Origin: Scilla litardierei
Taxonomy: Eukaryota; Streptophyta; Magnoliopsida; Asparagales; Asparagaceae
Reading direction: 5' to 3'
DNA length: 64,000 nt
Assembly: GCA_030789695.1 (NCBI GenBank)
Contig: CM061142.1
Span: 148,387,266-148,451,265, forward strand
The notes beneath the pieces were generated by a model, which had not been told where the DNA came from, ran no database searches, and saw only the letters and a list, made by a program, of their open reading frames with translations. Positions 11,081 through 53,055 of the stretch are shown piece after piece; position 1 is the first letter of the stretch, and the number at the start of each line of letters is the position of its first letter. The translations under genes were made by a program, and so were the position numbers.

Positions 11081-11741
11081 AAATCCCCCAAGCTTACCTC
11101 TTACTCGTCCTCGAGGAAGATAAGTAGAGAGACGAACTCGGGAGATGAAAATAAAGAAAATGAAATGAAAAAAAAAGAACACGAGGTGGAAGGGGTCGCT
11201 AGATTCTTCTCTCAGATCTCAAGCCATAAGCTACACATCACGATAACTTGGAAAATACAAATCACATGCTATAAGAATTTCATATCTTACTTAGACATGA
11301 TACTTGCAAGCTTTTAAGAATAACAAAAGGGACTCTCTAAATTCATACGATCAATTCATATCGACATCACGTATTTCATAGAATTTAATATACAATTCAT
11401 TGGCGATGCACTTTTCAATCTAAAGTTATAAATGAAGCATATAAGATACACACCAAGCATGCAATAGAGAATAGAATAAGAGTCAAGTCATTCACATATT
11501 TATTTCAAATCATGAAAAATCTCCATATCTAATATATTTTGCAAAGTCTAAGCATTATCGAATATTCACATTCATGCACGTCTCCACTCTAATGTCATAC
11601 TCACTCATATGGTCAAATGAATTCACCCCCCAAGCTTAGCTTGAGGCATCACATCTAAAGGAATATGATAGTGGAAATTGAGATTTTTGCCTTGGTTTTC
11701 CCAAGTATTTTGTGGCTCCAATAATGAGATAGAGAAATATC
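11081..11741 (-). other. Polypurine tract and 3' non-coding part of non-autonomous element 1
   Basis: The minus strand reads AAGCTTGGGGGATTT just before the left LTR, a polypurine tract. A second AAGCTTGGGGG word occurs at 11627-11637. No coding region is seen. The stretch is cut at 11741 by the solo LTR insertion and resumes at 13467. Confidence 0.7.
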
Positions 11742-13466
11742 TGTTGTGATTTGATTCCCCGGATTGGTTTTGGATGATGAGCAAACATAAATAATGTATA
11801 CTAACTTATTTGTGAGCGCAGTTATGGAGATCGTCGCCAAAATACCACGTTCATCAAAAGCGACTTCTCAAGACTTCTCAATACGCGTGATCGTGTGCCT
11901 GGAGCTTCGTTGAAGCTCAAGGAGCAATATGGAAGTCAAGAGGAATGAAGATTGAAGCTTTGAAGACGGCTCGTAAGGTTTATTTTATAGTCTTCTAGCT
12001 TCATAGATTAGAATGTTAAGCCTTGAGTAGGACTTACTTTATAATCTTCATTTCGCTCATATCTTAGAGCTAGGATATTCATTGAAGCCATTAGAAACTT
12101 TCCCGAAGCCTATCGCTTCTTCCCTCGGCTTCGAGTGCATGTTAGTTGGTTCAAGAAGAGTCACCAACCGACTAGATGACGATCTAGTCGGTCGGCAACT
12201 CTACATGAACCGACTAGTTTGCCTTCTCTATATTCAGCTCTTTCCATGACTACAGTTAGTCGGTCAAAGAAGAGTCACCGACCGACTAGATGACGATCTA
12301 GTCGGCCAGGAGTCCTTCTCAGACCGACTAGTTGTGTACAGTCATTTTCAGCCTGAGCTACTGTTTCGAGTTAGTCGGTCAAAGAACGTTTACCGACCGA
12401 CTAGTTGAGAAACTAGTCGGTCAGCATTTGTTCTTAAACCGACTAAGTCATCTTGAAGTCAACCTATTCTATTTCGACGTTAGTCGGTCAAAGAACATTC
12501 ACCGACCGACTAGTTGTGAAACTAGTCGGTCGGCAAGTCTTCTTAGACCGACTAGTTGTCTTTGCCTGTACTTCGACTTCTTGGCTGTTCTATCGTTAGT
12601 CGGTCTACGTTGTATCACCGACCGACTAGTTGATGAACTAGTCGGTCAGTGATCCTTCTTTGACCGACTAGTCTGCTTCAGAATAGAGCCGTTGGGATTC
12701 TTCCAAACTCGATTTCTCTTGCCCCTTTAAATAGAATCCTGATTCGTTTGAAGAGGGGTTAGAGGTCCTATTTCCAAGCAATTTCAGACCTAAGAGAAGA
12801 GCTCTCCCAAGCTATTTAAAAGCTCTCTCTCCCTCACAAGAATCTCTCCCTTCACTCTTTGAGCCATCTTCCTCAAGAGAGATTCTCTCTATTGTGAGCT
12901 TCTCAAGCCAAGAGCTTGATCCTAGTCATCATACTCCTCCCTAGGCTTCCATTGCTGGTCATCTTCTTGAAGCTAGGGTTTGGTGACATCCTCTTCCTCA
13001 AAATCCATCATTGCCCTAATTTGGTAAGTATACTCAAGGCATAGGATTTTGTAAGGTAAGAGTTTATTTCATTTCATATTTGAATTGTAAGTTTATCTCT
13101 CGGTTGTGAGAGAGGTTGTGATCCCGGTTTGTGGGAGTCACATGTCTTTTGTATGATTTGACTTGTGAAGGTTTTTCACAAGTATTTCATAGTGGAAATC
13201 TTGAGTTAGGGTTGCTAACTCAAGTATCCGGAGGGGATCCGGGTGGTTGGGACGTATGATCACCGGGAACAAGTCGGGGAGACTTGGGTGGATCCGAACC
13301 CAGTAATATTGTTTGTTTGCGTATGTTTTAATTCTTGTTGATAGTTGTTTAATTCCGCATTGTCGTTTGTTTCTTGCACAATAATTAGGAATAACTATCT
13401 TGATTATTTTAAGTACTATTCACCCCCCCTCTAGTACGTGTGCAGTAGCTACCACATGGCACTACA
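11742..13466 (+). mobile_element. Solo LTR of the inner Sirevirus family
   Basis: The 1725-bp segment starts TGTTGTGATTTG, ends GGCACTACA, and is flanked by the 5-bp duplication ATATC (11737-11741 and 13467-13471). From 11758 on it aligns with the LTRs at 40566 and 51302. It has the same GAGCAAACATAAATAAT start region, the same TAGTCGGTC/GACCGACTA modules (about 12145-12675), a TTTAAATA box at 12726, and the same hairpin series before its end. No internal region is present. This is the usual product of recombination between two LTRs. Confidence 0.92.
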
Positions 13467-16552: not shown

Positions 16553-16570
16553 TCCCCGGCAACGGCGCCA
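16553..16570 (-). other. Primer-binding site for tRNA-Asp
   Basis: The minus strand reads TGGCGCCGTTGCCGGGGA, an exact complement of the 3' end of plant tRNA-Asp (GTC) including CCA. It lies six bases from the LTR end. Confidence 0.9.
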
Positions 16571-16576
16571 AAAACT

Positions 16577-21459: not shown

Positions 21460-21547
21460 TGGTGAGTCTTTTTAATGAAAGATCTTCATTCATACGCTTT
21501 TCCAAACTCTATTGTCTCCACGTGAGTATTTCAGTTTGAACGATTAA

Positions 21548-25290: not shown

Positions 25291-26289
25291 TGTTACGACC
25301 TAAAGATCGTGATGATCTGACCTTGTGCCACGATCTGCCAAAGCGCCTCGTAGACATGCCCCTTGACAGAAGCGTGTCACCATTCTCGCTCCCATCTCCC
25401 CCCCCCCCCCCGCGATCCAGGGCCCCTGACTAAAAGGGCGCGGCCGAAACGTACGTCTGTTGCCCAGATTGGCCCAGAGGATTGTCAGAAGGCCCCCGCC
25501 ACCGACGAACGTCCCGCAGGACCCTTGGCTCATCGGACACGACAAACAACCTAATATAAGGACGTGACTGACACTTACACCGCCCGACCATCTGACAAGG
25601 CACCCCCTGGTCGCTACGCCCCCTGACATTTAATGCTTTCGGCCCTGACACCCTGAAAAAAGCGCCCATGGTCGTTGCACCGTCTGACAAAAGCGTGGCT
25701 GACACTCCTGTTCCTGACATCCTCGTCCGAAGCTTCCGCTGACAGCCATGCCAGATCAGCACGTCGAGTCAGCACGGCAGGTCAGCTCCACCTAACCGCC
25801 TTCCATCAGGTATAAATACCCCCTCACTTCTTACAGTGAGGGGGTTGGCAAATTCACACTCAATCCCATTATTCACACGCGAGAGCAAAGGTCGTCCATA
25901 TCTTTGTTCTCCCACTCATAGCTCGTCACGTACGGTCGACTCACCCTTAGTCCGACCTACGTGCCTAGCCCCCGCTTTAAGCCCAATTACTGACTTAGGC
26001 ATCGGAGAGGCTAAGGGTTGGACCCCAACCTGGCCTTTCTGACGAGTTGCTCATTGCGCAGGATAGCTCGTCCCCTGGCTCGAGTTCGCCTTCGACTCCC
26101 GCAGTCCGATCTTCCTCAACTGCATCTTGTGGGATTCGACTCTGTGGTCTGCTCCAATGACAAGCTTAGCCTTATCACCCCTCTAATCACCTGTCAAATA
26201 GCCTACCCTAATCCCTTCATTAACATAACCACCGTGCCCTTGGCTCCCCCTAATACAAATTCATTATACGCGAGCTCTAGCCCGCAACA
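25291..26289 (+). repeat. 3' LTR of the Tat-type gypsy element
   Basis: The 999-bp copy of 4484-5544 follows a polypurine tract. Relative to the 5' copy it lacks roughly 60 bp near 25390, where a run of Cs stands instead. TATAAATA at 25811-25818 and its hairpin are kept. It ends GCCCGCAACA at 26289. Confidence 0.9.
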
Positions 26290-31268: not shown

Positions 31269-31662
31269 TGTTGAGTATTGGACTTCTCCCTACTTGGTGT
31301 TAATGATGAGCAAACATAAATACTTGTGACTAATCCCCTATTTTGCAGTTAATCCATTGTCTAAGCTTACTATGAAGATCAACTAGCAATGGATGACTCA
31401 CAAACGTGATTGAAGGCAAATGATATGAATTGGATGATCATAGATTGATGATTGAAGCTCCGTAAAGACTTCAAGCTCATACGATGGAAAGAAGAGATTA
31501 TTCGTCAATGTAATTTTTCTTTTATCTCTTCTAGTATGTAGCTTAGAAGTAGAACTATGATGGAGCACTCACACACATCTACTTTCGGTCATAGGACACC
31601 GCTAGACCTTTGTCCTTTGATCGCAATTCAATTCTCTTTTGTTTGTGCTAGGATTGTTTATA

Positions 31663-32330
31663 ACAGCCGACTGCTTAACAGTTTGCAGTCGCCTGTCTCA
31701 AAAACAGTCGACTGTGTTTTGTTCTACAGTCGCCTGTTATGCACAGACTATTACAATGCAGTTTTTGGGTCCTCTCTGATTATCTCGCACAGGCTACTGT
31801 TGAACGTTTATCAGGTGCCTGTCTTAGCGACAGTCGACTGTGAATGGTTCATCAGTCGCATGTCTCTCCTTGTCCAAACTCTGTTTGATCCGATTTCTAC
31901 GGCCAGTCGACTTATGCTGTATATACAGTCGACTGTATATTAGATCAGTCGACTGTCTATGCTGCAACAGTCGCTTGTCTGTAAGTCTATTCTTTGACGT
32001 AGCTCTCTGGAAATTTCTCCTGTCTGTGACAGTTGTCTGTTTAAGGTTATACAGTCGCCTGTTCTGATTAATAGTCGACTGTGTTCCTTGCATCAGTCGT
32101 CTGTCCTGTATCTTGTGAGATTTCCAGTATTTCATCTAACTTACTCTTCTCTCGGCCAGTCGCCTGTCGAAGTATGTACAGTCGCCTGTTGGTTTTACAG
32201 ACGACAGTCTTGGCTTCATCAGTCGACTGTCCACGTGGTAAGTTACTGTTATGAATTCTCACCTACCCTTGCTGACTGTGCAGCAGTCGACTGTGGTTTG
32301 TTCATCAGTCGCCTGTCGCAAGTTCAGATT
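31663..32330 (+). promoter_or_regulatory. Array of ACAGTCGACTGT-type palindromes in the outer LTR
   Basis: Around twenty copies of CAGTCGACTG or the near-palindrome CAGTCGCCTG lie at irregular spacing upstream of the TATA box. The same array is in the 3' LTR (about 54770-55430), and the same motif family recurs inside the element at 38870-39225. It contributes to several shadow ORFs that are not genes. Confidence 0.85.
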
Positions 32331-32402
32331 ATATCCGTTGAGATTTTTCTCACGGATTTTTATTGGGTTTTTGCCTAAACTGTTTTATGGATTTGAGAGA
32401 GC

Positions 32403-32410
32403 TATAAATA
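32403..32410 (+). promoter_or_regulatory. TATA box of the outer Sirevirus LTR
   Basis: TATAAATA lies within AGCTATAAATAGAGC, about 75 bp after the palindrome array. The 3' LTR has it at 55510-55517. Confidence 0.7.
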
Positions 32411-32715
32411 GAGCTTCTATTGTTTCATTGGTAGGTTACTCATTCATTGCAAAATATTTCAAGCTTTCATTTCCAAAGATCAAAGCTTTCAAATCCAAAG
32501 CCCTAAGTATTTCCAAATCTGATTCTCTTGCTCTCCAACCTAGAACCAAAGATTGATCCTCTAGGCATTTGGTGCAGTCAAGAGAAAGGGCTTTCCTCCT
32601 CTCTTCCAAGAGAGTTCTTCAACACACATCACACTTCTCCTTCAAGTTCTACTTCAAGGCATAGGTGATTGTAAGTGTTGCTTTCAGATTTCATAACTTC
32701 ATTATTTGAATTGTG

Positions 32716-32920
32716 CTCTCGGTTGTGAGAGTGGTTTTTGCTTGCTCCCTGGTTGTGGGAGTCAAGGACATCGATTGTATTCGATTGCACTTGTAGGGTT
32801 GCTACAAGTGGGTTTTTAAGGAAACCTCAAGTTAGGGTTCTAACTTGAGTATCCGGTGGTATCCGGGTGGTAGGGACGTAGGATTACCGGGAACAAGTCG
32901 GGAGTTGACTTGGGTAATCC
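32716..32920 (+). other. Structured RNA leader of the outer Sirevirus
   Basis: Downstream of the TATA box and before the primer site lie successive inverted repeats. They are CTCTC/GAGAG (32716-32720, 32727-32731); TTGCTCCC/GGGAGTCAA (32742, 32757); CACTTGTAG/CTACAAGTG (32788, 32802); CTCAAGTTAG/CTAACTTGAG (32826, 32840); and a nested GGATTACC/GGTAATCC (32881, 32913) enclosing AAGTC/GACTT (32895, 32907). The inner family keeps the same order with paired changes in the stems. RNA folding is inferred. Confidence 0.7.
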
Positions 32921-33088
32921 GAACCCTTGAAACATAACTGCGTTTGCGTGTGTTTCTCTTTGGGTTGTTTTCTATTCCATACTATTTGTTGGATTGCATT
33001 TTATTTGCCGTAAATTCCTATTAAATTTGCATAAACACTATGCAACCCCCCCTTCTAGTGTTTTCCCCATAGACAGGATCCTTACAAT

Positions 33089-33100
33089 TGGTATCAGAGC
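33089..33100 (+). other. Primer-binding site for initiator Met-tRNA (outer element)
   Basis: TGGTATCAGAGC lies two bases after the LTR end, the standard copia primer site complementary to the 3' end of tRNA-iMet. Confidence 0.92.
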
Positions 33101-38869: not shown

Positions 38870-39225
38870 GACAGACGACTGCGTTTCTTTTGACAGTTGA
38901 CTGCCCTACTCTATATCCTCCATATGAAAATTGATATCTTTCGCTTAGCCGACTGCTGACTGTTTTACAGTCGACTGTTAGTGTAACAGGCGACTGCAAT
39001 TTAGTCATCAGGCGACTGTTCTCTCTGTCAATTTTTTACAGTGTTCTCTGTCTTTCTTGTGATATGTATTAATTCTCGGCCAGCCGACTGTTGAGTATAT
39101 GTCAGTCGACTGTCCAGCGGACAGGCGACTGCATTATACTTGCCAGTCGACTGCCCATCTCTCTGAGATTTAATTTTATCACTTCTTACAGTCGACTGAC
39201 TTTTGTTCTCCAGTCGACTGTCTCC
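38870..39225 (+). promoter_or_regulatory. Internal copy of the palindrome array, upstream of the outer accessory gene
   Basis: About ten CAGTCGACTG and CAGGCGACTG sites occur between the end of pol and the accessory gene, the same motif family as in the LTR. The intervening bases are not LTR sequence, so this is not a duplicated LTR piece. The position suggests a separate control region for the accessory gene; this is inference. Confidence 0.75.
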
Positions 39226-39570: not shown

Positions 39571-40565
39571 ATGGCTCCTAAACCTAAAGGAAAAGAGAAG
39601 ATCATTGCTTCTAAACAACCTAGGGCACCTAAGAAACTCATAGCCAAGAGAAATAAACCCTATAAAGCTCGAACCAAGCATGCCCAGTCTCCTATACGTT
39701 CATCTTCGCCGGGTTATTCCCCTTCTTCTTCGTCGAGCGATGCTCAGCCCTTGATTCGTCGTCAGCGCAAGCCTACTGGTGTTCAAATCAGTGAGCCTGC
39801 AGCTGAGATTCCTCATGTGTCTCCTTCTGCATCCAGTTCGTCTGAAGAAACTCCTGATGTACCCCCATCTGATCCCCTGGTTCCCGTTTGCAGAGACGAT
39901 CTTTGTCTGGCAAAGTTTCACTCTCTCCTTGGGATCAATCTGCTTAGGGAGCGGTACATTGCTTTTCCCGCATTCACTACCGAGAGACTTTCTGTCATTC
40001 TGTCTGCTACTCACCTGGCCGATCCTTTTCGCTTCTCTCAGAGCGAGTCCCCCAGAGCCTACCCATTTCTGGTGAAGCTCTTCTATGCGAACCGCATTCG
40101 CGGTGAGTATTCGACTACTGGCATCCTTGATACTGTCGTCCAGGGAACCCACATTCATCTCACTCCCTCTCTTTTAGGGACTATCCTTAGGATTCCTTCT
40201 GTCGGTTCCCTCCCCACTGATATCAGCTTTTTTGAGATTGACGATCTTGATCAGTCTGTTCTCCGGGATATGTTTCGATAGGTTCCTTTAGCTCTTGATT
40301 CGGGTGTCAGATCATCCATGTTCTCTGCACGGGGTTGGGCTGTTCACCTAGTGGTGAAGTCCAACATTCTGCCGAGATATGGATCGTCCGATCAGCCGTC
40401 TCAGGATATACTAAAGTGTATGTATGTTATTCTCTCTGGCATGCCCGTGAACTGGGCCGGTGTCCTCCTTGACAGGATGGACAAGGTTGAGTTCACGTCC
40501 TCCTCATCTCACATTCCCTTTGGTGGTCTTTTGACTCGTGTCTTCCGTCACTTTGGTATTGACCT
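39571..40565 (+). pseudogene. Accessory protein of the outer Sirevirus, N-terminal part
   Basis: Starts MAPKPKGKEKIIA with a basic, Ser/Pro-rich leader. The conserved part follows: VCRDDLCLAKF near 39890 and PFLVKLFYANRIRG near 40066, both shared with the inner element's accessory protein at 48680. A TAG at 40279-40281 interrupts the frame, which otherwise continues to the nested insertion at 40566. The second half is 53061-53511 in the same frame. The conserved part looks like the domain family known as 'putative plant transposon protein'; from memory, not searched. No membrane segment or signal peptide is evident. Confidence 0.75.
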
Positions 40566-40976
40566 TGTTGAATATTGGACTCCCCGGATTTGGTTTTGAT
40601 GATGAGCAAACATAAATAATCCATTAACTAACAATTTGTGAGCGCAGTATTGGAGATCGTCGCCAAATTCACGAGAACATTCAAAGCGACATCTCAACAC
40701 TTCTCAAAGCTCGTATTCATGCCTAAAGCTTCGTTGAAGCTCTTGCGCCATTTCGGAAGTAATGAAGATTCAATCGAAGCTTTCGAAGACCGTTCTTTAA
40801 GGTTTATTTATAGTCTTTTAAGCTTCGATCTATAGAATATTAAGCCTTGAGTATATCTTACGTTTCTATCTTCATAACGCTCATGTCGTAGCTCTAGGAT
40901 CTTAGTACAAGTTCATTCTAACTTCCTCGAAGCGTCGCGCTTCGATTCGGACTTGTTTGTGCATGTTAGTTGGTAC

Positions 40977-41505
40977 AAGAAGAAGTACTGACCAACTAGA
41001 TGGTGATCTAGTCGGTCAGCAACTCTTCTTGGACAGACTAGTTTGATTCCTTAATTTCTTGTTCAGTACTGTTTACAGTTAGTCGGTCTACGTTGACTCA
41101 CCGACCGACTAGTTTGTGAACTAGTCGGTCAGTGATGCTTCTTTGACCGACTAGTTGTGACTTACTGTTCATACTAAATTTCTCCTAAGCTACTGTTTAT
41201 CGTTAGTCGGTCTAATAACGTTTGGTGACCGACTAGTTGACAATCTAGTCGGTCCACTTTTGTTCTTGGACCGACTAAGTCAATTTGTATTCAGACTATT
41301 TCACTTTGCCTCTTAGTCGGTCTACGTTCACTGACTGACCGACTAGTTGTGAAACTAGTCGGTCAGAATGTCTTCTTGGACCGACTAGATTTCTAGGTCT
41401 TAATTTCTATCTCTTCTCAGTTCCTCTCTTAGTCGGTCCATGTTGTTTGACTGACCGACTAGTTGATGAACTAGTCGGTCAGTGGTTGTTCTTTGACTGA
41501 CTAAT
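40977..41505 (+). promoter_or_regulatory. Array of TAGTCGGTC/GACCGACTA dyads in the inner LTR
   Basis: About five modules, each with a fixed grammar. AGTCGGTC is followed, after about 14 bases, by a tight inverted pair (GACCGACTAGT, short loop, ACTAGTCGGTC), then after about 14 bases by GACCGACTA. Each module is thus a roughly 75-bp dyad with four half-sites. Spacer sequences differ while half-sites and spacing are kept, which suggests selection on the sites. The array ends about 55 bp upstream of the TATA box. The same modules recur inside the element at 47990-48370. Confidence 0.88.
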
Positions 41506-41558
41506 TGTCTCAGATTTCTATCCGTTGGAAATTGACCTAACTTGTTTTTATGGGACCC

Positions 41559-41566
41559 TATAAATA
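41559..41566 (+). promoter_or_regulatory. TATA box of the inner Sirevirus LTR
   Basis: TATAAATA lies within ACCCTATAAATATGAAC; the 3' LTR has it at 52295-52302. The transcript would start near 41590. Confidence 0.7.
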
Positions 41567-41936
41567 TGAACCTAGGTCATTTCTATCTAGGTTAGAGCTG
41601 CCATTAAGAGATTCATTGAGATCAAAAGAGATAGCCATTCTCACTCTTTTCCAAAGCTCTCTTCCTCACAAGAAACCCATTCTCTCTCATTCTAGATCTA
41701 GAATCCATCTTGAGAGAAGCTTGTTCTTGGTGAGCCCTTCAAGCTCTAGCTTGAATCAAGTCTCCAAATCTCTCCTAGGCACCTATTGCTGGTCATTTCC
41801 TTGGTGCTAGGTCTTGGTGACTTCATCTTCCTTAAATCCTTCATTTCACCTATTTGGGTAAGAAAAACTCAAGGTATATGATTTTGTGGTAAGATTGTTT
41901 ATTTCATTATAAACTCATTTATATTGCTTGTTGATT

Positions 41937-42142
41937 CTCTCGGTTGTGAGAGAAGGTTGTGATCCCGGGTTGTGGGATTCACTATTGCCATTGCATGTAT
42001 GATTTGATCTTGTGAAGGTTTTTCACAAGATATTCATAGTGGAAATCTTGGGTTAGGGTTTCTAACCTAAGTATCCGGAGGGGATCCGCGTGGTTGGGAC
42101 GTAGGATCACCGGGAACAAGTCGGGGAGACTTGGGTGGATCC
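41937..42142 (+). other. Structured RNA leader of the inner Sirevirus
   Basis: Inverted repeats run in the same order as in the outer family. They are CTCTC/GAGAG (41937, 41948); GTGATCCC/GGGATTCAC with one bulge (41959, 41974); ATCTTGTGAA/TTCACAAGAT (42007, 42022); CTTGGGTTAG/CTAACCTAAG (42047, 42062); and nested GGATCACC/GGTGGATCC (42104, 42134) around AAGTC/GACTT (42118, 42128). Stem sequences differ from the outer family on both arms. This lies in the transcribed part of the LTR, about 180-380 bases before the primer site. Confidence 0.7.
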
Positions 42143-42321
42143 GAACCCATTAACATATTTTGTTAACATTGTTAAATTTGTTGTTGTCATTCAATTTAAG
42201 CTTCCGCAAATTGATTTGGTAGTTGTTTGCACTATAATTTGGAATTATACTCCTTGTTATTTTTAAAGTACTATTCACCCCCCCTCTAGTACTTGTGCAG
42301 TAGCTTGTAGGGCATTACATT

Positions 42322-42334
42322 TGGTATCAGAGCC
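42322..42334 (+). other. Primer-binding site for initiator Met-tRNA (inner element)
   Basis: TGGTATCAGAGCC lies two bases after the LTR end, the standard copia site for tRNA-iMet. Confidence 0.93.
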
Positions 42335-42346
42335 AGATACTTAGCT

Positions 42347-44587
42347 ATGTCTGCCAACGACAACAAGACAGTGCGTCCACCTTCCAACTATGACACCTTC
42401 AGGAACCGTGAAGGAGCATCTTCGGTGATGGAAGTACATTCCTCTACGAGGCCTCCATTCTTCAACGGTACCAACTACGGGTACTGGAAATGCCGGATGG
42501 AAACCTTCCTCCGGAGTGCATCTTTATGGAGGACTACAATGAAGGAGTACATCGAGCCCGAAGAAGAAGACTTTGAGAAATGGACTACCGCGGAGGTCGC
42601 CGCGGAGGTAAGCAATGCCAAGGCAATGAACGCCTTGCAATGCGCATTGGAGCCCGAGGACTTCAATAAGATATGCACATGTAAGAGTGCATATCAAATT
42701 TGGAACTCCCTCCTCATACTACATGAAGGAACGAGTAGGGTAAGAGACTCTAAACTCGTAGTCGTAAACAAAGATTACGAAATGTTTCATATGCAACAGG
42801 GCGAGAAGATGAAGGAATATTACGCTCGCTTCGTTGACATAATAAATGAGTTAGAGGCCCTCGGCAAGTCCTACACTCAAAAGGAGAAGTGCTCAAAGCT
42901 TATCGAAGGACTTCCTTCTTCTTGGGAGAAACGTACCTTCGCCATCGAGGAAGGTAATGACATGAATAAGTATACCGTAGTTCAATTGATGGGTACTTTG
43001 ATGTCATACGAGGTACGCAAAGATAGCAAGGTGAAGTTACAAGAAAAGATGAAGTCCTATTTGAACCAAGACGTGCCTAAGAAAAAGGCAATTGCATTCA
43101 AGGCGGCTTCATCCACCTCTACCGATGATGAGGACTCGGAAGAAGAAATGGACATGGAATCCATTGCACTCATGGCAAAGAAGTTCAATCGCTTCTTCCG
43201 AAAGGGTAACTTCAAACAAAAATCTAAATTTACTTCTACTAACGCCTCTCCACCTTTGTGTTTTAAATGCAATAAGCCAGGACACATCAAAGCAGATTGT
43301 CCTCAAAACAAGCAAAATGAGAAGTGGAAGGTGCCGAAGTTCGACAAGTCAAAGAAGTACAAAAAGGGGTACAAAAAGGGACTTGTCGGAGCAACATTCA
43401 CCGACTCCGAGGATTCCTCAAGCGGAGAATCGGACGATGAGAAAGTGGAGCAAGCGCACATGTGCTTCATGGCAAGAGAGGAGCATGATCAAGGATCTTC
43501 CTCCTCCGATGATAGCGACGACGAAGGCGATGAGGTAACTATGGATGATCTTAGGGATGCTAACTCTCATTTATGGTCTAAATACACTAAGTTAGTAAAT
43601 AGATATACTAAAGTAAAAGATGACCTAGCTAGCATTCAAACCTCGCCTAAGACTATCATCACCAACAACGACACCGTTGTTGAAGAGTTAAGAAATGAGA
43701 TTGTCAATCTCAAATCTAAACTTGAACATGTTAGCATTGATGATCCGGAAGAACATAGGATAGCGGATTTAACTTCTCAAAACTCGACTTTGAGTATTGA
43801 AAACGAGAATCTTAAATCTCGTGTTTATGTGCTCACATCGGAAGTATCCACTTTGGATACTTCTATGCGTTCTCTCAAAGAGAAATATGAGAACACATTA
43901 GGCCGAATTAATAAATTCAATAAGGGTAAGGACCATTTGGATAAAATCCTAAGTGACTTACTTCCGGCCAATCACCACATTGGTTTGGGGTATACGATGG
44001 GATGTCCATCCAAAGCGGCCACTACTTTTGTTAGGCCAACTTCCGGTGACTCTACGAGTGGTAGCAAACACTCTATTGGTAGTTCATCTACCAATGGTGC
44101 TTCCACCTCGTCCACACCCTCTTTTGGAAAGAAACCCACTTTGGGTGGACCTCCAAAGAAGGGGCATGCTTATATGTACACCAATACCATGCCACGTAGG
44201 AACACACGTCCTACTCCACCGTCTCACACATATGATGATTTTTATGCAACACATTCTCGGGCACGTGCACACCATGTGAGACACCCTCACGCACGTGTTC
44301 CCACACATGCATATGTTCACCCACCTCATCATATGAATAATTCTCGTCGTGCACCATTCCATCATGTTCCTTATGCCTATCCACGACATGCATCACGTAG
44401 AAACCAACAACGCATGCATGCACCCAATAGGATGATGGCTCCCAAAATTTTCACTATTTGGAGCCCAAAGGACACAAGCATGGATGAAAAACAAGTATAT
44501 ATGAATGCTTACTTTTCGGATGTTGTGTATAGTAGAAATTATGTGGGGAAGTCTAAGTCCAATTGGACTTGGCTTCCAAAGGTCTAA
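42347..44587 (+). CDS. Sirevirus Gag (746 aa)
   Basis: Forms the virus-like particle and binds the RNA, by family. The first ATG after the primer site gives MSANDNKTVR. The capsid part carries TRPPFFNGTNYGYWKCRM near residue 32 and KICTCKSAYQIWN near 110. The zinc knuckle CFKCNKPGHIKADC lies at about residues 305-318, followed by a Lys-rich patch, an acidic Ser/Asp zone and a coiled-coil-like stretch at about 400-540. A His/Arg/Tyr/Pro-rich tail near 610-700 ends in WTWLPKV. The frame is fully open, longer than many copia Gags but usual for Sireviruses. Pol follows in the same frame after several stops. Confidence 0.95.
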   Translation: MSANDNKTVRPPSNYDTFRNREGASSVMEVHSSTRPPFFNGTNYGYWKCRMETFLRSASLWRTTMKEYIEPEEEDFEKWTTAEVAAEVSNAKAMNALQCALEPEDFNKICTCKSAYQIWNSLLILHEGTSRVRDSKLVVVNKDYEMFHMQQGEKMKEYYARFVDIINELEALGKSYTQKEKCSKLIEGLPSSWEKRTFAIEEGNDMNKYTVVQLMGTLMSYEVRKDSKVKLQEKMKSYLNQDVPKKKAIAFKAASSTSTDDEDSEEEMDMESIALMAKKFNRFFRKGNFKQKSKFTSTNASPPLCFKCNKPGHIKADCPQNKQNEKWKVPKFDKSKKYKKGYKKGLVGATFTDSEDSSSGESDDEKVEQAHMCFMAREEHDQGSSSSDDSDDEGDEVTMDDLRDANSHLWSKYTKLVNRYTKVKDDLASIQTSPKTIITNNDTVVEELRNEIVNLKSKLEHVSIDDPEEHRIADLTSQNSTLSIENENLKSRVYVLTSEVSTLDTSMRSLKEKYENTLGRINKFNKGKDHLDKILSDLLPANHHIGLGYTMGCPSKAATTFVRPTSGDSTSGSKHSIGSSSTNGASTSSTPSFGKKPTLGGPPKKGHAYMYTNTMPRRNTRPTPPSHTYDDFYATHSRARAHHVRHPHARVPTHAYVHPPHHMNNSRRAPFHHVPYAYPRHASRRNQQRMHAPNRMMAPKIFTIWSPKDTSMDEKQVYMNAYFSDVVYSRNYVGKSKSNWTWLPKV

Positions 44588-44641
44588 CTTTTAAGGACCC
44601 AATGACCTTGGGTACCATGATATGAAAGTTTCTATCTTTAG
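44588..44641 (+). other. Gag-pol junction with clustered stops
   Basis: Gag ends TAA at 44585-44587. The same frame then meets TGA, TGA and TAG (44639-44641) before pol opens with GTA CTC AAG. The outer copy has TAA and TAG at the matching places, also followed by GTA-x-AAG, so the block is conserved. Simple read-through of one stop cannot make Pol here. The TTTCTATCTTTAG before GTA looks like a splice acceptor. Internal initiation, shifting or splicing are all possible. Confidence 0.55.
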
Positions 44642-47600
44642 GTACTCAAGGAAAAGAAAAAGAAAAGGAGCAACAAATTTAAATTTAGCTCCAAAGGGAA
44701 TTGGATACTCGATAGCGGGTGTTCAAAACACATGACGGGTGACGCTCAATTGCTCTCCGGAGTGGTTCCCATTGCAAATGGAAATCGCGTCGTATTTGGA
44801 GGCAATGAGAGCGAAACAATCGTCGGTGTTGGTAAAGTGGGTAACCCTTCTAAACCCTTAATTAGTGATGTGTATCTAGTTAATGGTTTGAATCATAATC
44901 TTATTTCAATAAGCCAACTTTGTGACAAAGGTTACAAAGTTAGATTTGCGAAAGGATTATGTCATATTTCAAATGATGATAATAAATTATTATTTTCCGG
45001 CACACGTCATAAAGATATTTATATTTTGGATCTTCCTAAGTCATATGAACAATGTCTCGTTGCCAACACAAGTGAACAACACTTATGGCATCGACGATTT
45101 GGACATGTGAACTTTGGAACACTTTATAAGCTTTCAAAATTAAATTCCATTAAAGGTTTTCCGAAGCTCGTTTTTGAAAAGAAAAGTTTTTGCGATTCTT
45201 GTCAACGTGGCAAGCTTCCTAAATCTTCATTTAAACCTAAGAAAAGCATTTCTACGAAACGGCCACTAGAGCTTTTACATCTAGATTTATTTGGGCCAAC
45301 TAGAGTTGCTTCCTTAGGAAATGCAAGATATGGACTAGTCATCGTTGATGATTATTCAAGATTTACATGGGTATTTTTCTTATGTAATAAAAATGAAGCT
45401 TTTGAAAACTTCACAATATTTGTGAAGAAAGTACAAAATCTCATCGGAACCACCATTGTCACTATTCGTAGTGATCATGGGGGTGAATTTGAGAATGAGT
45501 CTTTCTCAAATTTTTGTGATGATCTTGGAATTACTCACACGTTTTCTTTCCCTCGCGCACCTCCTCAAAATGGTGTTGTTGAGAGGAAGAATAGAACGCT
45601 TGTGGAGTGTGCTCGCACTATGCTCGAAGATAGTCAACTTGGTTATCAATTTTGGGCGGAAGCGGTACACACCGCTTGCTATGTGTTTAATAGAATACTT
45701 TTGAGGCCCGGCACCAAACAAACTTGCTATGAATTGTTGTTTGGTAGATTGCCTCAAGTTAAACATTTTCGTGTTTTCGGCGCAAAATGTTTTATTAAAA
45801 ACACATATGATAATTTGGACAAGTTTGATCCGAGATCGGATAAGGGGATATTTGTTGGGTATTCCTCACGTAGCAAAGCCTACCGGATATACAACAAAAG
45901 ATCCTCTACGATCGAGGAATCACTTCATGTCTCTTTTAATGAGAACTTTACTACTTCTAGAATTTCAAATGATAATGATTCTATGGATGTTTTATGTGAT
46001 TCGTTTGAAAATTCTAAGTCTATTGATTCAATTGATTCTATTGAGACTAACCCGACTAATGAAGTTGTTGAGAATGTGCCTAGTGATCAAGGTATTCCCA
46101 AGCAGCTTCATACCGTTCGCGACCATCCCCATGAGCAAGTCATTGGCAATATTCATGATAGTGTCAAGACGAGATCGCAAGTCCACCACTTCGCCAATAG
46201 TGCCTTTGTCTCATCAATAGAGCCAAAGAATATAGTTGAAGCTTGCGAAGATAATGCTTGGATCCTTGCCATGGAGGAGGAACTCATTCAATTCGAGAGG
46301 AATGAGGTATGGGAGCTTGTTCCTTTGCCATCGAAGAACCACACCGTCATAGGGACAAAGTGGATCTTCAAGAACAAATCCGACGAAAATCAAGCCGTCG
46401 TCCGGAACAAAGCTCGGTTAGTTGCTCAAGGCTATCGCCAAGAGGAAGGTATCGATTTCGAAGAATCCTTCGCTCCGGTAGCTAGATTAGAATCAATTAG
46501 ACTATTATTGTCTTATGCATGCCATAAAAATTTTAAATTATTTCAAATGGATGTTAAAAGTGCATTTTTAAACGGAGATGTTGTAGAGGAAGTTTACGTT
46601 TCTCAACCTCCGGGCTTCATAAATGAAAAATTTCCAAATCATGTTTTTAAACTAAAGAAAGCTCTTTATGGTTTGAGACAAGCTCCTCGAGCTTGGTATG
46701 ATCGCCTAAAGAATTTTCTTTTGGATTTGAATTTTAAAATGGGCGAAGCCGATTCTACACTTTTTGTTAAGCATGCGAATAATGATATTTTATTAGTTCA
46801 AATTTATGTTGATGATATCATTTTCGGTGCTACTAACTTCACTCTTTGCGAAGAGTTTTCTAATGTTATGAAGGAACAATTTGAGATGAGCCACATGGGC
46901 GAACTCAAATATTTCTTAGGTCTCCAAATTCGCCAAATGAACGATGCAATCTTTATCCACCAAACGAAGTATACGGTGGAGTTGCTTAAGCGATTTGGAA
47001 TGGAGAGTGCTTCCGGGAAAAAGACTCCAATGAGCACGACTACGCATCTTGACAAGGATACGGGCGGTAAGGATGTAGACATTCATCTATATCGAGGTAT
47101 GATAGGTAGTTTACTCTATCTTACCGCAAGTTGGCCTGATATTATGTTTGCCGTATGCATATGTGCTTGTTATCAGTCTCAACCTAAGGAGTCTCACTTA
47201 GTAGCGGTAAAACGTATTTTCCGTTATCTAAGTTATACACTTGATTTTGGATTACTTTATCCAAAATCTATCACGTATGAGTTAGTCTCATACAGTGATG
47301 CCGATTATGCGGGATGCAAATCCGACAGGAAAAGTACTAGTGGCACTTGCCATTTTCTAGGAAATTCTCTTGTCTCTTGGTTTTCCAAGAAGCAAAATTC
47401 CGTATCACTTTCAACCACCGAGGCGGAATATATTGCCGCCGGTGCCGCTTGTGCCCAGGTTCTTTGGATGAGACACACTTTGAAGGACTTTGGTATTCAT
47501 TGTGATACTAGCCCTATCATGGTGGATAACCAAAGTGCTATCTGTCTTTCAAAGAATCCGGTGCACCATTCCCGATCAAAACACATAGATGTCCGACACC

Positions 47601-47692
47601 ATTTTTTAGATGATCATGTTGCTAAAAAGGACATCATTTTAGTGTACGTTGAAACCCAAAAGCAAATCGCCGATATTTTCACGAAACCCTAA
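44642..47692 (+). CDS. Sirevirus Pol: protease, integrase, reverse transcriptase, RNase H
   Basis: About 1016 residues are open from just after the TAG at 44639; the true start codon is unknown. The protease has [13 protein letters not shown]. Integrase has HHCC (LWHRRFGHV ... CDSCQRGK), [25 protein letters not shown] and [12 protein letters not shown] has [21 protein letters not shown] and YVDDIIFGA with the catalytic Asp pair. RNase H has [20 protein letters not shown] and [10 protein letters not shown]. All key residues are present. The frame ends early at DIFTKP because one C is missing from a C-run at about 47687. The lost tail is about 20 residues and would have ended near 47754, as in the outer copy. 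The catalytic domains are unaffected. Confidence 0.95.
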
Positions 47693-47989
47693 AGGAGGAC
47701 TCCTTTGTGCGGTTGCGTCGAGAATTGGGGATTATGGGTGAATCCGAGATATAGGATTCATATCTCATTCAATTATCTTGCATGCTATTAGATTTCGCGA
47801 TATTTCGTTCATGCTAGATTTATTGAATTTTTGGGATTTTATGTGATATGTTTGAATTTGTGCTCGAATTCATATTTGTATGTCGTATTTAAGATTTCGA
47901 CGTTTTATGGGGTAATTTAGATTACTAATGAGAGAGTTAAGATGTTTCATCCAAGTGGTTTGTGAAGAGAACTCAATTATCAATTTTTG

Positions 47990-48370
47990 GACTCTTCTAG
48001 TCGGTTTCAGTTCATTAGTCAACCGACTAGATGCTCATCTAGTCGGTCAGCTAGTGAACTCAGACCGACTAGATCAAGCTTTAATCTAACTCTTATCATT
48101 TTCTTTCTTTAGTCGGTCACAGTACACTTACCGACCGACTAGATTGAAAACTAGTCGGTCAGTGAGTATACTGCGACCGACTAATTCTAGCCCTAAAATT
48201 TTCCTGTTTGCCTCTGTTTCGACTTAGTCGGTTCAAGCTCATTGACAGACCGACTAGATCGTAATCTAGTCGGTCAGTGCTTGAACTGTGACCGACTAAG
48301 TGTGTTAGGGCAAACGTGTCTTTTTGCTTCCAGACCGACTTAACTCTATTTTCATCCGACTAAAGTTCAT
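47990..48370 (+). promoter_or_regulatory. Internal copy of the TAGTCGGTC dyad array, upstream of the inner accessory gene
   Basis: Three complete modules with the LTR grammar lie at about 47998-48075, 48111-48185 and 48222-48300, followed by scattered half-sites to 48370. Arms are the same as in the LTR, and spacers are unrelated to it. In the second module even the spacers are nearly complementary, making a long imperfect hairpin. The array sits between pol and the accessory gene. A shared factor acting on both the LTR and this region is inferred. Confidence 0.85.
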
Positions 48371-48379
48371 TTTAGTCGG

Positions 48380-48679
48380 TCTTCTACTCTTCTCCAGCCC
48401 GCAAAAACCCAAAACCCCTTCGAGACCCTTCGACTTCCGACGTCTTTCCGGCCATCTTTCCGACCATCCCCGCCGTCCGTCGCCGTCGACCCTCTCTCCT
48501 AGGTATAACCCCTCTCCTAGATCTCTTTTTCCTACTCTAGGGTTTGATTTAGATCTCTTCTAGCTTCTAGGGTTTCGAATTTCATCTAGGGCTTGATTAT
48601 TTCGGATTTCCTATCTTAGGGCTGTGTGCTTAGGGTTGTTCAATCTTCGTCGCTTGCTTGTTCTTGTCGTGCCACGATC
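48380..48679 (+). promoter_or_regulatory. Gene-like 5' leader of the inner accessory gene
   Basis: A C/T-rich stretch with many CTAGGGTTT words (related to the plant telo-box AAACCCTA) runs to the ATG at 48680. CCTAGGTATAACC at 48498 resembles a 5' splice site, so a leader intron is possible. Similar features are typical of the leaders of plant cellular genes. No clear TATA box is seen. Confidence 0.45.
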
Positions 48680-50341
48680 ATGGCAAAGACGAGGATCCCT
48701 ATCACTTCATCTGGGGCTTCCCCAATGACTGTAGAGCCTTCTAACCCTAGGAATCCATCTAAGCCCAAGCGCCGTGCTAAATCTACCCAAGCTTCTTCGT
48801 CTTCGCCTCCTCTGAAGAAGCAGAGGACGACGACGGTCAAACCCCGAAATTCTACGTCTAAAAAGCCCATACTCCACACTCCCTCTACTCCTCCTGATAC
48901 AGATTCTGAGTTTATTCCTAAGGATGACTCTGGCCTTAGGGAACCTACTCCTCCACTTCATCCTAGGACTCGCCAGCCTAAGGGAAAGGGCCCAATGCCA
49001 GCGGGTGGTGTTGACATATCGTTGTGTCGCGACGACCCTATGTGTCTAGCGGCCTACAACCGTATTGAACACTGCCCGATGCTATTGGAGCACTATGTTC
49101 AGTTTTCAGATTTCCTTGGCTTAGCTGATCTTCTCTCCTATAGTGGCCTATTGGATTATCTTCGCTATGACCCCAAGGCGAACCCCAGACCATATCCTCG
49201 CCTGGTCAAATTATTCTACGCCAATCGTGTTCGGGGCCTGTACGACGAGAGTCACTCTATCGAGACTACTGTCTTGGGAACTCCTATAGTTCTCACGGCA
49301 GAAATCTTGGGGGAGATTCTTGGTTGTTCGTCGTCTGGTGTCCTTCCTTCGGATATTTCTGTTGATGATATCACTTCCTTGGATCAGTCCGTTCTTTCTG
49401 ATATCTTCCATGTGATCCCTCCTACCCTCATTGGTGTTCCTTTGAAGTCGTTCAAACCTAATGCATGGGTGCTTAATCTCATTCTGAAGTCGTGCTTGCT
49501 TCCCAAGTACGGCTCATCTTCTCTGCCATCCCAGCCTTTTCTCAAGCTGATTTACACTCTTTTCTTGGGTTGCGAGATTAATTGGGCTCGCGTTATACTC
49601 GATAAGATGGACTTTTTCGAGTGTATTCGCAAGACCAATAAATCTGCGCATATCCCTTACCCGTGTCTGTTGACCCTGGTTTTCCGTCATTTCCGTGTCC
49701 CTCTCCCTCCTGACGATGAGCGTCCTTTGGGTCCTCTTCTGAACGCGACGGCCGTTAAGAAATCTTTTGCGGCGCTTCGTCACGTGCAGAGGTCGACCAC
49801 ATCTGCTTCCCAGGCCACTCCCTCAGCTGTTGCAGCCCCCACTCCTCCTGCTACATTAGATGATGTCGTACGCCTTCTTCGTCGGCACGAGTCGTGTTTG
49901 GCTCGTACCGAGGAGGTCGTCTGCCGTATGGCTTGTATGATGGGCTTTGATCTTCCTCCTTCCGTTTCTGAGGCCGAGGAGATGGACGATGAGGAGATTG
50001 ACGAGCTTGTCACTTCCTTGGCTCGTGGCGATGAGGCCACTGCCACTGCTGCTGCTGCTGCTACCACATCTGCTCCTGGAGTTGGCACCACTTCCGGTGC
50101 TCCAGAGACTTCTGCATCAGTTGTTCAGACTTCTGAGGCTGTTGATGTCCCTGTTGACGAGCCTGCTCCTATCTTACCTGCTGATATTCCTGTTGATACT
50201 TCTGCCGTCGAGCCTATCGTCGACGTCACGACTCCTGCCCCGACGATCCCGTCTGTTGAGACACCTCTACTCCCTGTAGAGCCTGAGTCCACTCCGTCGA
50301 CTGGACCCACGGAGACTGCAGATCCATCCACTTCCTCGTGA
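48680..50341 (+). CDS. Accessory protein of the inner Sirevirus (553 aa, intact)
   Basis: An open frame from MAKTRIPITS. Residues 1-110 are basic and Ser/Pro/Lys-rich with nuclear-localisation-like patches (KPKRRAK, KKQR). The conserved core at about 113-370 contains CRDDPMCLAAYNRI, PRLVKLFYANRVRG, a DISVDDITSLDQSVL segment and CLLPKYGSSSLPSQP, all matched in the outer element's protein. The C-terminal third is Thr/Ala/Pro/Ser-rich and acidic. It resembles the uncharacterised 'putative plant transposon protein' family (from memory). It occupies the place of the env-like gene of some Sireviruses, but I see no signal peptide or membrane segment. A nuclear, DNA-related role would fit the basic N-terminus and adjacent palindromes, but is unproven. 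Confidence 0.85.
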   Translation: MAKTRIPITSSGASPMTVEPSNPRNPSKPKRRAKSTQASSSSPPLKKQRTTTVKPRNSTSKKPILHTPSTPPDTDSEFIPKDDSGLREPTPPLHPRTRQPKGKGPMPAGGVDISLCRDDPMCLAAYNRIEHCPMLLEHYVQFSDFLGLADLLSYSGLLDYLRYDPKANPRPYPRLVKLFYANRVRGLYDESHSIETTVLGTPIVLTAEILGEILGCSSSGVLPSDISVDDITSLDQSVLSDIFHVIPPTLIGVPLKSFKPNAWVLNLILKSCLLPKYGSSSLPSQPFLKLIYTLFLGCEINWARVILDKMDFFECIRKTNKSAHIPYPCLLTLVFRHFRVPLPPDDERPLGPLLNATAVKKSFAALRHVQRSTTSASQATPSAVAAPTPPATLDDVVRLLRRHESCLARTEEVVCRMACMMGFDLPPSVSEAEEMDDEEIDELVTSLARGDEATATAAAAATTSAPGVGTTSGAPETSASVVQTSEAVDVPVDEPAPILPADIPVDTSAVEPIVDVTTPAPTIPSVETPLLPVEPESTPSTGPTETADPSTSS

Positions 50342-51301: not shown

Positions 51302-53055
51302 TGTTGAATATTGGACTCCCCGGATTTGGTTTTGATGATGAGCAAACATAAATAATCCATGAACTAACAATTTGTGAGCGCAGTATTGGAGATCGTCGCC
51401 AAATTCACGAGAACATTCAAAGCGACATCTCAACACTTCTCAAAGCTCGTATTCATGCCTAAAGCTTCGTTGAAGCTCTTGCGCCGTTTCGGAAGTAATG
51501 AAGATTCAATCGAAGCTTTCGAAGACCGTTCTTTAAGGTTTATTTATAGTCTTTTAAGCTTCGATCTATAGAATGTTAAGCCTTGAGTATATCTTACGTT
51601 TCTATCTTCATAACGCTCATGTCGTAGCTCTAGGATCTTAGTACAAGTTCATTCTAACTTCCTCGAAGCGTCGCGCTTCGATTCGGACTTGTTTGTGCAT
51701 GTTAGTTGGTACAAGAAGAAGTACTGACCGACTAGATGGTGATCTAGTCGGTCAACAACTCTTCTTGGACAGACTAGTTTGATTCCTTAATTTCTTGTTC
51801 AGTACTGTTTACAGTTAGTCGGTCTACGTTGACTCACCGACCGACTAGTTTGTGAACTAGTCGGTCAGTGATGCTTCTTTGACCGACTAGTTGTGACTTA
51901 CTGTTCATACTAAATTTCTCCTAAGCTACTGTTTATCGTTAGTCGGTCTAATAACGTTTGGTGACCGACTAGTTGACAATCTAGTCGGTCAACTTTTGTT
52001 CTTGGACCGACTAAGTCAATTTGTATTCAGACTATTTCACTTTGCCTCTTAGTCGGTCTACGTTCACTGAATGACCGACTAGTTGTGAAACTAGTCGGTC
52101 AGAATGTCTTCTTGGACCGACTAGATTTCTAGGTCTGAATTTCTATCTCTTCTCAGTTCCTCTCTTAGTCGGTCCATGTTGTTTGACTGACCGACTAGTT
52201 GATGAACTAGTCGGTTAGTGGTTGTTCTTTGACCGACTAATTGTCTCAGATTTCTATCCGTTGGAAATTGACCTAACTTGTTTTTATGGGACCCTATAAA
52301 TACGAACCTAGGTCATTTCTATCTAGGTTAGAGCTGCCATTAAGAGATTCATTGAGATCAAAAGAGATAGCCATTCTCACTCTTTTCCAAAGCTCTCTTC
52401 CTCACAAGAAACCCATTCTCTCTCATTCTAGATCTAGAATCCATCTTGAGAGAAGCTTGTTCTTGGTGAGCCCTTCAAGCTCTAGCTTGAATCAAGTCTC
52501 CAAATCTCTCCTAGGCACCTATTGCTGGTCATTTCCTTGGTGCTAGGTCTTGGTGACTTCATCTTCCTCAAATCCTTCATTTCACCTATTTGGGTAAGAA
52601 AAACTCAAGGTATATGATTTTGTGGTAAGATTGTTTATTTCATTATAAACTCATTTATATTGCTTGTTGATTCTCTCGGTTGTGAGAGAAGGTTGTGATC
52701 CCGGGTTGTGGGATTCACTATTGCCATTGCATGTATGATTTGATCTTGTGAAGGTTTTTCACAAGATATTCATAGTGGAAATCTTGGGTTAGGGTTTCTA
52801 ACCTAAGTATCCGGAGGGGATCCGCGTGGTTGGGACGTAGGATCACCGGGAACAAGTCGGGGAGACTTGGGTGGATCCGAACCCATTAACATCTTTTGTT
52901 AGCATTGTTAATTTTGTTGTTGTCATTCAATTTAAGCTTCCGCAAATTGATTTGGTAGTTGTTTGCACTATAATTTGGAATTATACTCCTTGTTATTTTT
53001 AAAGTACTATTCACCCACCCTCTAGTACTTGTGCAGTAGCTTGTAGGGCATTACA
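51302..53055 (+). repeat. 3' LTR of the inner Sirevirus
   Basis: The 1754-bp LTR is the same length as the 5' copy, with about 16 base differences by eye and no indels. Many differences are C/T or A/G. It ends at the GACCT duplication, after which the outer accessory gene resumes. Confidence 0.96.

Follow-up and report, generated by a model that had tools for sequence, protein, structure and literature searches.

Sirevirus retrotransposons carry RM boxes, palindromic and mostly CGG-CCG motifs that occur in high copy number upstream of the LTR TATA box (Bousios 2010, PMC2829016; this and the other papers are cited from parts of their text). In the parts cited, nine elements also had RM boxes ahead of the ENV-like gene, four ENV-less elements had no linker copies, and six ENV-containing Sireviruses without RM boxes were mentioned. 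A regulatory role and an internal promoter were suggested for the boxes, and the role of the Sirevirus ENV gene was called highly controversial (PMC2829016). The two-place array pattern analysed here is already published under that name. The initial annotation of this DNA did not mention the prior publication.

We analysed a window of 64,000 nt from Scilla litardierei (CM061142.1, 148,387,266-148,451,265), and all positions are window coordinates. The window holds an inner and an outer Sirevirus and a related solo LTR (Table 1). The sequences on either side of the inner element show the target duplication GACCT, and a domain scan found Retrotran_gag_2, gag_pre-integrs, rve and RVT_2 in copia order; the two outer ORFs scanned gave the same domain set. 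The PPT octamer AGGGGGAG occurs four times after the env-like gene in each Sirevirus and is absent from gag-pol of both, its last copy lying 10 bp before the 3' LTR (inner 51292, LTR 51302; outer 54366, LTR 54376). The TATA box is mid-LTR in both elements (inner 41559, outer 32403), with C-runs near both LTR ends. The attachment site after the terminal PPT is AA/TG in both, against AT/TG in 20 of 21 Sirevirus elements (PMC2829016), a minor departure, the other Sirevirus hallmarks tested being present. Both elements have at least eight palindromic copies, situated in the LTR upstream of the TATA box with extra copies before the ENV-like gene, as RM boxes do.

Table 1. Features of the two Sireviruses and the solo LTR (window coordinates).
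Feature	Position	Strand	Remark
Solo LTR, related; 5 tetrads at 12143-12670	11741..13464	+	5-bp target duplication ATATC
Outer Sirevirus 5' LTR	31269..33095	+	97.3% identical with 3' LTR
Outer 5' LTR array, 5 tetrads and one pair of ACAGTCGACTGT-type sites	31663..32316	.	22-19/20-22 bp
Outer internal array: pair, two tetrads (38945, 39080), pair	38871..39221	.	
Outer accessory gene, first piece	39571..40281	+	In-frame stop at end
Inner Sirevirus 5' LTR	40566..42319	+	Self-alignment against 51302-53055, 99.1%
Inner 5' LTR array, 5 tetrads of TAGTCGGTC/GACCGACTA half-sites	40967..41503	.	Upstream of TATA box
TATA box TATAAATA, inner 5' LTR	41559..41566	+	56 bp past end of last LTR site
Inner gag and pol ORFs	42347..47692	+	Ty1/copia domains
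Inner internal array, 3 tetrads and one remnant	47998..48381	.	Between pol and accessory ORF
CT-rich leader, array to accessory ATG	48382..48679	+	Putative promoter/5' UTR
Inner accessory ('env-like') gene, 553 aa, PF20167 Transposase_32	48680..50341	+	Profile match
Inner Sirevirus 3' LTR	51302..53055	+	Self-alignment with 5' LTR
Inner 3' LTR array, same 5 tetrads	51703..52239	.	
Outer Sirevirus 3' LTR	54376-56198		

With at most one mismatch, TAGTCGGTC matched 76 times in the window against 8.3 expected (maximum of 100 shuffles, 19). The sites form modules of 74 bp, each a single site, a tight inverted pair and a single site at +0, +23(-), +42(+) and +65(-), and this plan was the same in the 18 modules laid out. 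Modules start at 40967, 41080, 41204, 41314 and 41430 in the inner 5' LTR and at 47998, 48110 and 48225 in the internal array, where a partial module ends at 48381; full tetrads contribute 20 half-sites per LTR and 12 internally. The initial annotation had described five modules of about 75 bp upstream of the LTR TATA box, in agreement with these positions, and three internal modules, which we also found along with the remnant. Its placement of the internal array right before the ORF did not stand, as the array ends about 300 bp before the ATG at 48680. The annotation missed the degeneracy of the first inner LTR module and the third array, in the solo LTR. Three tetrad sites were placed by spacing: 40967 and 12143, each the first site of a first LTR module with two mismatches, and 38945 in the outer element, with four.

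The inner sites carry CGG and CCG, but 14- and 10-bp spacers separate the half-sites. The outer sites (CAGTCGACTG; 22 in the LTR, 12 internal) are mostly without CGG. As had been noted initially, the outer element repeats the two-place pattern with another palindrome, ACAGTCGACTGT/ACAGTCGCCTGT; both families keep the 22-19/20-22 bp tetrad spacing despite their different site sequence. The outer accessory gene is additionally interrupted by the inner element, inserted at 40566, and its core pieces are 46-47% identical to the inner ones.

Half-sites and spacers have diverged to very different extents. Against an LTR of about 75% identity, 172 of 180 half-site positions were identical and 94 of 140 spacer positions, with no indels inside tetrads in this comparison. 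Inner LTR and internal modules shared 94.8% of half-site positions and 46.4% of the 14-bp spacers (random expectation 26%), which bears out the earlier claim that spacers differ while half-sites and spacing are kept; neutral evolution of the sites, which had been named as evidence against the initial interpretation, is contradicted by the half-site conservation. In the outer element, LTR and internal sites were 77% alike at equal spacing, with spacers near random (36.5% against 30.5%). The internal array might nevertheless be a by-product of template switching or recombination that moved LTR DNA, with no regulatory role. The excess similarity of the inner spacers and the apparent movement of arrays between element types are in its favour, but the outer spacers, the self-alignment, which reported no LTR match beyond the array at the internal site, and the presence of the internal array with the accessory gene in sampled elements make it very improbable. 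Simple copying of LTR DNA, already doubted in the initial annotation, is unlikely for the outer element, given its near-random spacers, and weakened for the inner.

The tetrad could instead be used as a palindrome of about 75 bp, an RNA hairpin or DNA cruciform serving the element or feeding small-RNA silencing, a role already proposed for the LTR palindromes of maize Sireviruses. RNA folds of 11 tetrads (four of five inner LTR, three inner internal, two of five outer LTR, two outer internal) gave z-scores of -3.1 to -12.7. Spacer arms of the same tetrad were complementary beyond swapped arms in the outer element (39/70 against 28.3, P = 0.0006) and in inner-type tetrads (103/182, P = 0.012), in permutation tests that treat related tetrads as exchangeable. 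Pair counts exceeded nearly all shuffles, with 2/500 and 7/500 reaching the observed percentage paired, and the palindromes of maize Sireviruses are known targets of small RNAs (PMC5311732, PMC10760457). However, the inner arm signal weakened under within-array permutation (P = 0.03; 0.15 with G-U pairs), and arm symmetry may be left over from inverted duplication. It is the half-site letters that are conserved, not pairing alone, and spacer length was constant across the compared tetrads, where a hairpin could have tolerated bulges. Structure also leaves the switch of motif at constant spacing unexplained, and we consider this reading improbable.

The 3.68-Gb genome contains 195,862 exact three-site matches, a count of matches and not of elements. 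We sampled 12 array-bearing elements, hand-chosen among 100 places listed for the opening 1.1 Mb of a single contig; some of them are near copies of each other (L010/L013/L016; L012/L015). In this small sample the internal array was present in 4/4 accessory-bearing elements and, within the stretches fetched, in 0/8 accessory-less elements, the distribution reported for RM boxes, whose linker copies occur only with ENV. Elements were fetched in part, the side from pol to the 3' LTR being covered in five of the eight (L010 with L024, L012, L015 with L025, L020, L021) and the gag side only in the L010 copies L013 and L016. An accessory gene without an internal array, which had been named as evidence against the initial reading, was seen in 0/4 elements here, but Bousios 2010 mentions the six ENV elements without RM boxes.

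Half-site conservation, fixed spacing and the association of the internal array with the accessory gene together give good support to the simpler proposal of the initial annotation, and LTR and accessory gene probably share cis-regulation by one factor. We propose that a multimeric DNA-binding factor with sequence specificity uses the arrays as its binding platforms. The unit would be a tetrad whose four site centres are separated by 22, 19-20 and 22 bp, each step amounting to two helical turns. Because such tetrads precede both the LTR TATA box and the accessory gene, full-length and accessory transcription would answer to the same factor. The inner leader may supply an internal promoter; it contains CTAGGGTTT motifs at 48537 and 48567 and no TATA by the words scanned. 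A sigma-70 promoter scan was discarded, as that model does not apply to plants.

The array extends beyond Sireviruses. Six of the eight accessory-less carriers were Ty3/gypsy elements, and the similarity of their LTRs to those of Sireviruses is confined almost entirely to the array; in four of them only 82-97 bp separate the end of the integrase match from the LTR, too little for a gene. Another carrier, L011, had no recognised coding. Among 16 arbitrary 10-kb windows, TAGTCGGTC tetrads occurred in one (L040, gypsy), and no array was seen in the gypsy relatives of windows L026 (69-76%) and L037 (85-89%). Transfer of whole LTRs between superfamilies was rejected, since the best matches with arrays masked were 17-57 bp (E 0.003-0.47); the unmasked L011 match begins about 97 bp before the first tetrad of the solo LTR. 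The site pair was found in one viral contig (L001), and the accessory protein and part of pol had no matches in viral contigs. The gypsy carriers contradict a strictly cis-acting, element-private reader, and they require either a reader acting in trans or a host factor.

A host factor reading the arrays would make the LTRs and the accessory promoter stress-responsive, Sireviruses and gypsy elements having converged on or exchanged an enhancer. The inner half-site GACCGACTA includes ACCGAC, which we take to be the DREB/CBF (DRE/CRT) core, and the counts of RCCGAC are 17 for the inner LTR array, 15 for its internal counterpart and 25 for the array at 12 kb, against 0-2 for three other inner-element stretches. 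A database comparison of such boxes found mainly stress-related factor sites (Bousios 2010, PMC2829016), and gypsy elements without the accessory gene bear the same array. However, the two arrays of the outer family, at the same spacing, hold just one and two copies of RCCGAC, which weakens DREB as the sole explanation. E2 uses another palindrome, and a fixed host factor leaves the joint change of sites within a family at constant spacing unexplained. We regard a host factor as rather unlikely.

The most likely factor would be the accessory (PF20167, 'env-like') protein, as a nuclear, DNA-binding protein. It would open or activate the promoters of its element, including its own, as VANC does for VANDAL transposons, and Ty3/gypsy elements that have the array but lack the gene would exploit it in trans. 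The N-terminus is basic, and hydropathy gave no clear transmembrane stretch, as a retroviral-type envelope would have, in the inner protein (best 19-residue value 1.59; 0.96 in the outer first piece). PF20167 was its sole Pfam family at E up to 10, in a search whose HMMER filters discard most matches weaker than E 0.1; DUF1985 and DUF287 were not found in it, and sequence comparison revealed no homology to VANC. A whole-protein homolog search gave no matches, and the 120 of 376 matches listed from an alignment-based search were all from Cephalotus. A moderate-confidence model of the PF20167 family ranked VANC21-DNA (9lnj) first of 350,542 PDB chains, with alignment to residues 304-563 of VANC21; this match was weak (E 0.28, TM 0.17), and VANC had been named before the fold search. 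A low-confidence model of the inner protein gave no VANC21 match, AlphaFold2 on the inner core with a 3-row alignment was unusable (pLDDT 41), and BFVD gave no match at E 0.001; absence of a family from such fold lists does not exclude it.

The bolder initial suggestion, that the accessory protein is a VANC-like reader of the array, gains an independent though weak hint from the fold match and is opposed by the missing VANC homology, the inner-only model and the gypsy carriers without the gene. We lowered our estimate because of the TM-score and the ENV elements without RM boxes, and on sequence and model grounds we judge such a reader plausible, at somewhat less than an even chance. The two Sirevirus site types give n = 2 for co-variation of site and protein. 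More tentatively still, Sirevirus PF20167 proteins may be VANC-class anti-silencing or activating factors, each family with its own site in a fixed helical tetrad, placed in the LTR for the element as a whole and before the gene for its own regulation, the gypsy elements having adopted the array so as to exploit the factor in trans. If so, an anti-silencing system known from VANDALs, which are DNA transposons (MULEs), would also operate in abundant LTR retrotransposons, with a DNA code common to superfamilies in a 3.7-Gb genome. The defined site and spacing, candidate reader, possible DNA-bound structural relative and gypsy carriers make the question testable in vitro.

RM boxes were described as short palindromes with a consensus of 10-20 nt; fixed-spacing tetrads common to two families with different sites are new with respect to that account. 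RM boxes were also reported absent from classic retrotransposons, whereas the arrays here occur in Ty3/gypsy LTRs too, and in the parts cited Bousios 2010 proposed no element-encoded reader, for which the accessory protein is now a candidate. Maize Sirevirus palindromes (Bousios 2016, cited in PMC10760457, PMC5311732) are likewise clustered in the LTR cis-regulatory region with strong predicted structure, but their motif is CACCGGACNNNGTCCGGTG, their context is silencing, and the parts cited mention neither tetrad spacing nor an accessory-promoter array. Grande gene23 and Retand TRP28 are also extra genes between pol and the 3' LTR of plant LTR retrotransposons, the former with its own promoter and a nuclear protein, the latter with tandem arrays in that region and a product predicted to bind DNA (PMC7264820, PMC11963269). 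Unlike the accessory gene, they are antisense and belong to protein families other than PF20167, and the parts cited do not describe sites common to the LTR and the promoter of the gene. The VANC/VANDAL system resembles this one in its element-specific short motifs, dense non-coding arrays and fast-evolving accessory gene (PMC5735166, PMC10398659). It differs in that VANC21 motifs are arrayed in one orientation and not as palindromic tetrads, and in that VANC carries DUF1985 and DUF287 where the accessory protein carries PF20167. The unrelated element AT9TSD1 bears VANC6 motifs (PMC5735166, PMC10398659), a parallel to the gypsy elements that bear the Sirevirus array.

Sites resembling TAGTCGGTC occurred 76 times in the window, compared with 8.3 expected. 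We mapped 18 inner-type tetrads (a single site, a tight inverted pair and a single site, with site starts at +0, +23(-), +42(+) and +65(-)): five in each LTR of the inner Sirevirus, five in a solo LTR and three in the internal array, upstream of the accessory ('env-like', ENV) gene. This type comprised 13 distinct tetrads, all with a centre-to-centre (CpG) spacing of 22-20-22 bp. The initial annotation had claimed the same two-place pattern with another palindrome in the outer element, and we found it there: tetrads built of ACAGTCGACTGT/ACAGTCGCCTGT, five in the 5' LTR and two internal, spaced 22-19/20-22 bp in 7/7, with additional site pairs at 22 bp. Three degenerate sites (40967, 12143 and 38945) fell below scan detection and were positioned from the spacing. 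On average a step measures 21 bp, or two turns of the helix. By motif-free 7-mer autocorrelation, 22 or 42 bp was the top direct spacing in the two internal regions and in LTRs of inner, outer, solo and E2 type; a control gypsy LTR and two gag-pol regions did not show this. Positions 4-6 of the 14-bp spacer were often GAA or GTT by eye (tetrads of 12143-12670 and of genomic stretches L010-L020), perhaps a second contact point.

Coordinates of the LTR elements, TATA boxes and accessory ORF
Feature	Position	Remarks
Inner Sirevirus LTR pair	40566-42319 and 51302-53055	99.1% identical to each other
Outer Sirevirus LTR pair	31269-33095 and 54376-56198	97.3% identical to each other
TATA boxes	41559 (inner LTR), 32403 (outer LTR)	
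Inner accessory ORF	48680-50341	PF20167 Transposase_32, E 3e-15
E2, third LTR element	8915-11080 and 16553-18718	minus strand
Solo LTR of Sirevirus	11741-13464	~75% identical to inner LTR; TSD ATATC on each side

In E2, triplets of a 12-bp palindrome, ACTCGGCCGAGT with 0-3 mismatches, have their members 21-23 bp apart and precede, on the minus strand, a TATA at 10051; E2 shares the spacing of the Sirevirus arrays but not the site. Its PBS-like sequence resembles what we take to be the tRNA-Asp type, suggesting Ty3/gypsy. Read on the minus strand, the first ORF past its 5' LTR (403 aa, 15176-16387) had no Pfam match. Similar palindrome pairs were present in two other genomic stretches (L032, L040). 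E2 is nested inside a gypsy-type element with an apparent 0.9-kb LTR pair (4662-5544 and 25405-26289, 92%), which also contains 80-bp GC-rich tandem repeats (21546-23210).

Between inner and solo LTRs, identical positions numbered 172/180 in half-sites, 94/140 in 14-bp spacers, 41/50 in central spacers and 107/155 in linkers, with no gap events within tetrads and eight within linkers. As initially annotated, spacers differ while half-sites are kept: between inner LTR and internal array, half-sites were 94.8% and spacers 46.4% alike (random 26%), and the corresponding outer values were 77% and 36.5% (random 30.5%). Because half-sites were conserved while spacers diverged, the internal arrays do not appear to be fresh copies of LTR DNA, as had also been claimed, and the sites are under constraint. 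Between its two LTRs, the inner copy showed 16 differences, 3 of them in the 180 half-site positions (of 1754 LTR positions), as expected of post-insertion decay.

Entire tetrads form inverted repeats of ~75 bp, and action through structure or small RNAs would agree with RNA-fold z-scores of -3.1 to -12.7 (11 tetrads) and with arm pairing above that of swapped partners: 39/70 positions versus 28.3 in the outer spacer arms (P = 0.0006), and 103/182 in 13 inner-type tetrads (P = 0.012; weaker under within-array permutation, P = 0.03, or 0.15 with G-U pairs included). We consider such action improbable, however, as constant spacer length and conserved half-site letters better fit protein binding than a structural role.

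It is likely that a single putative factor reads both the LTR and the accessory promoter. That this factor is the accessory protein is a tentative proposal, if a serious one; a host factor is a somewhat unlikely alternative. The two Sireviruses of the window, one nested in the other, both had copia-type domains (Pfam) and four copies each of the PPT octamer AGGGGGAG, the last exactly 10 bp upstream of the 3' LTR. Two events disrupt the outer accessory gene, an in-frame stop and the insertion of the inner element. Inner/outer identity was 46-47% in the accessory core (two outer pieces), 55% in gag, 71% in an integrase/RT piece and 85% in RNase H, making the accessory gene the most diverged among the pieces compared. 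At 48500-48620, the leader of the inner accessory gene contains telo-box-like CTAGGGTTT motifs and what may be a 5' splice site (TAG/GTATAA).

The pattern TAGTCGGTC-N12-16-GACCGACTA-N8-12-TAGTCGGTC had 195,862 forward matches across the 3.68-Gb genome, and its reversed control had none; by hand count, 99/100 of the matches listed spanned 51 bp, i.e. 14/10 spacing. Within the initial 1.1 Mb of contig C1 we sampled 12 array-bearing elements, as partial stretches. Four (L014, L017, L018, L019) combined Sirevirus pol with an accessory core that matched the inner one at 84-94% identity. The expectation that the internal array accompanies the accessory gene held in these 4/4 carriers, where it lay between RNase H and the gene, but not in six ENV-containing Sireviruses without RM boxes mentioned in the available part of Bousios 2010 (PMC2829016), which count against an obligatory box-ENV link.

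The other 8/12 had LTR arrays, with both accessory gene and internal array absent from the fetched stretches (pol-3'LTR side covered in 5/8). Six of them encoded Ty3/gypsy proteins: L010, L012 and L020 by Pfam (RVP_2, RVT_1, RT_RNaseH, Integrase_H2C2, SH3_Tf2-1 and Retrotrans_gag among their ORFs), and L013, L015 and L016 by tblastn with proteins of those three. L021 was a gag-only Sirevirus element and L011 had no recognised coding. The gypsy arrays lay within LTRs (four LTR pairs mapped). With arrays masked, gypsy and Sirevirus LTRs shared only 17-57-bp stretches (E 0.003-0.47). Since gypsy/Sirevirus spacers were 54.6% alike, compared with 58.8% among Sirevirus tetrads and 30% when shuffled, the array was probably exchanged between these elements, or the spacers are constrained too. 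One of 16 arbitrary 10-kb windows contained such tetrads, in a gypsy element (L040) that carries an array at either end. In two further windows of this set, gypsy relatives of an array carrier (L026 and L037; pol proteins 69-76% and 85-89% identical) had no array detected in their 10 kb, so there may have been array gain or loss inside one gypsy lineage. No evidence speaks more strongly against a private, cis-acting system than the gypsy carriers; if the accessory protein acts like VANC, the anti-silencing proteins of Arabidopsis VANDAL transposons, these carriers are the clearest sign of freeloading.

The two-place pattern is not new, because the available text of Bousios 2010 (PMC2829016) already describes RM boxes of Sireviruses, which are palindromic and lie upstream of TATA in the LTR and, in nine elements, also upstream of ENV; it reports none in the linker of four ENV-less Sireviruses and suggests an internal promoter. 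That text describes no tetrad spacing, gypsy carrier or element-encoded reader; the spacing and gypsy carriers were observed here. A sunflower Athila element has an ORF with partial PF20167 similarity, according to the portion available (PMC11728184). Among the titles and abstract openings listed by our searches of open-licence papers, none proposed that the env-like proteins of Sireviruses act like VANC, which does not prove that no such proposal exists. According to a 2026 meeting report, available in part (PMC12859917), structures of VANC with DNA, as yet unpublished, suggest coevolution. In the accessible sections of PMC5735166, VANC21 binds arrays of YAGTATTAY and VANC6 binds other motifs, which are also carried by an unrelated element.
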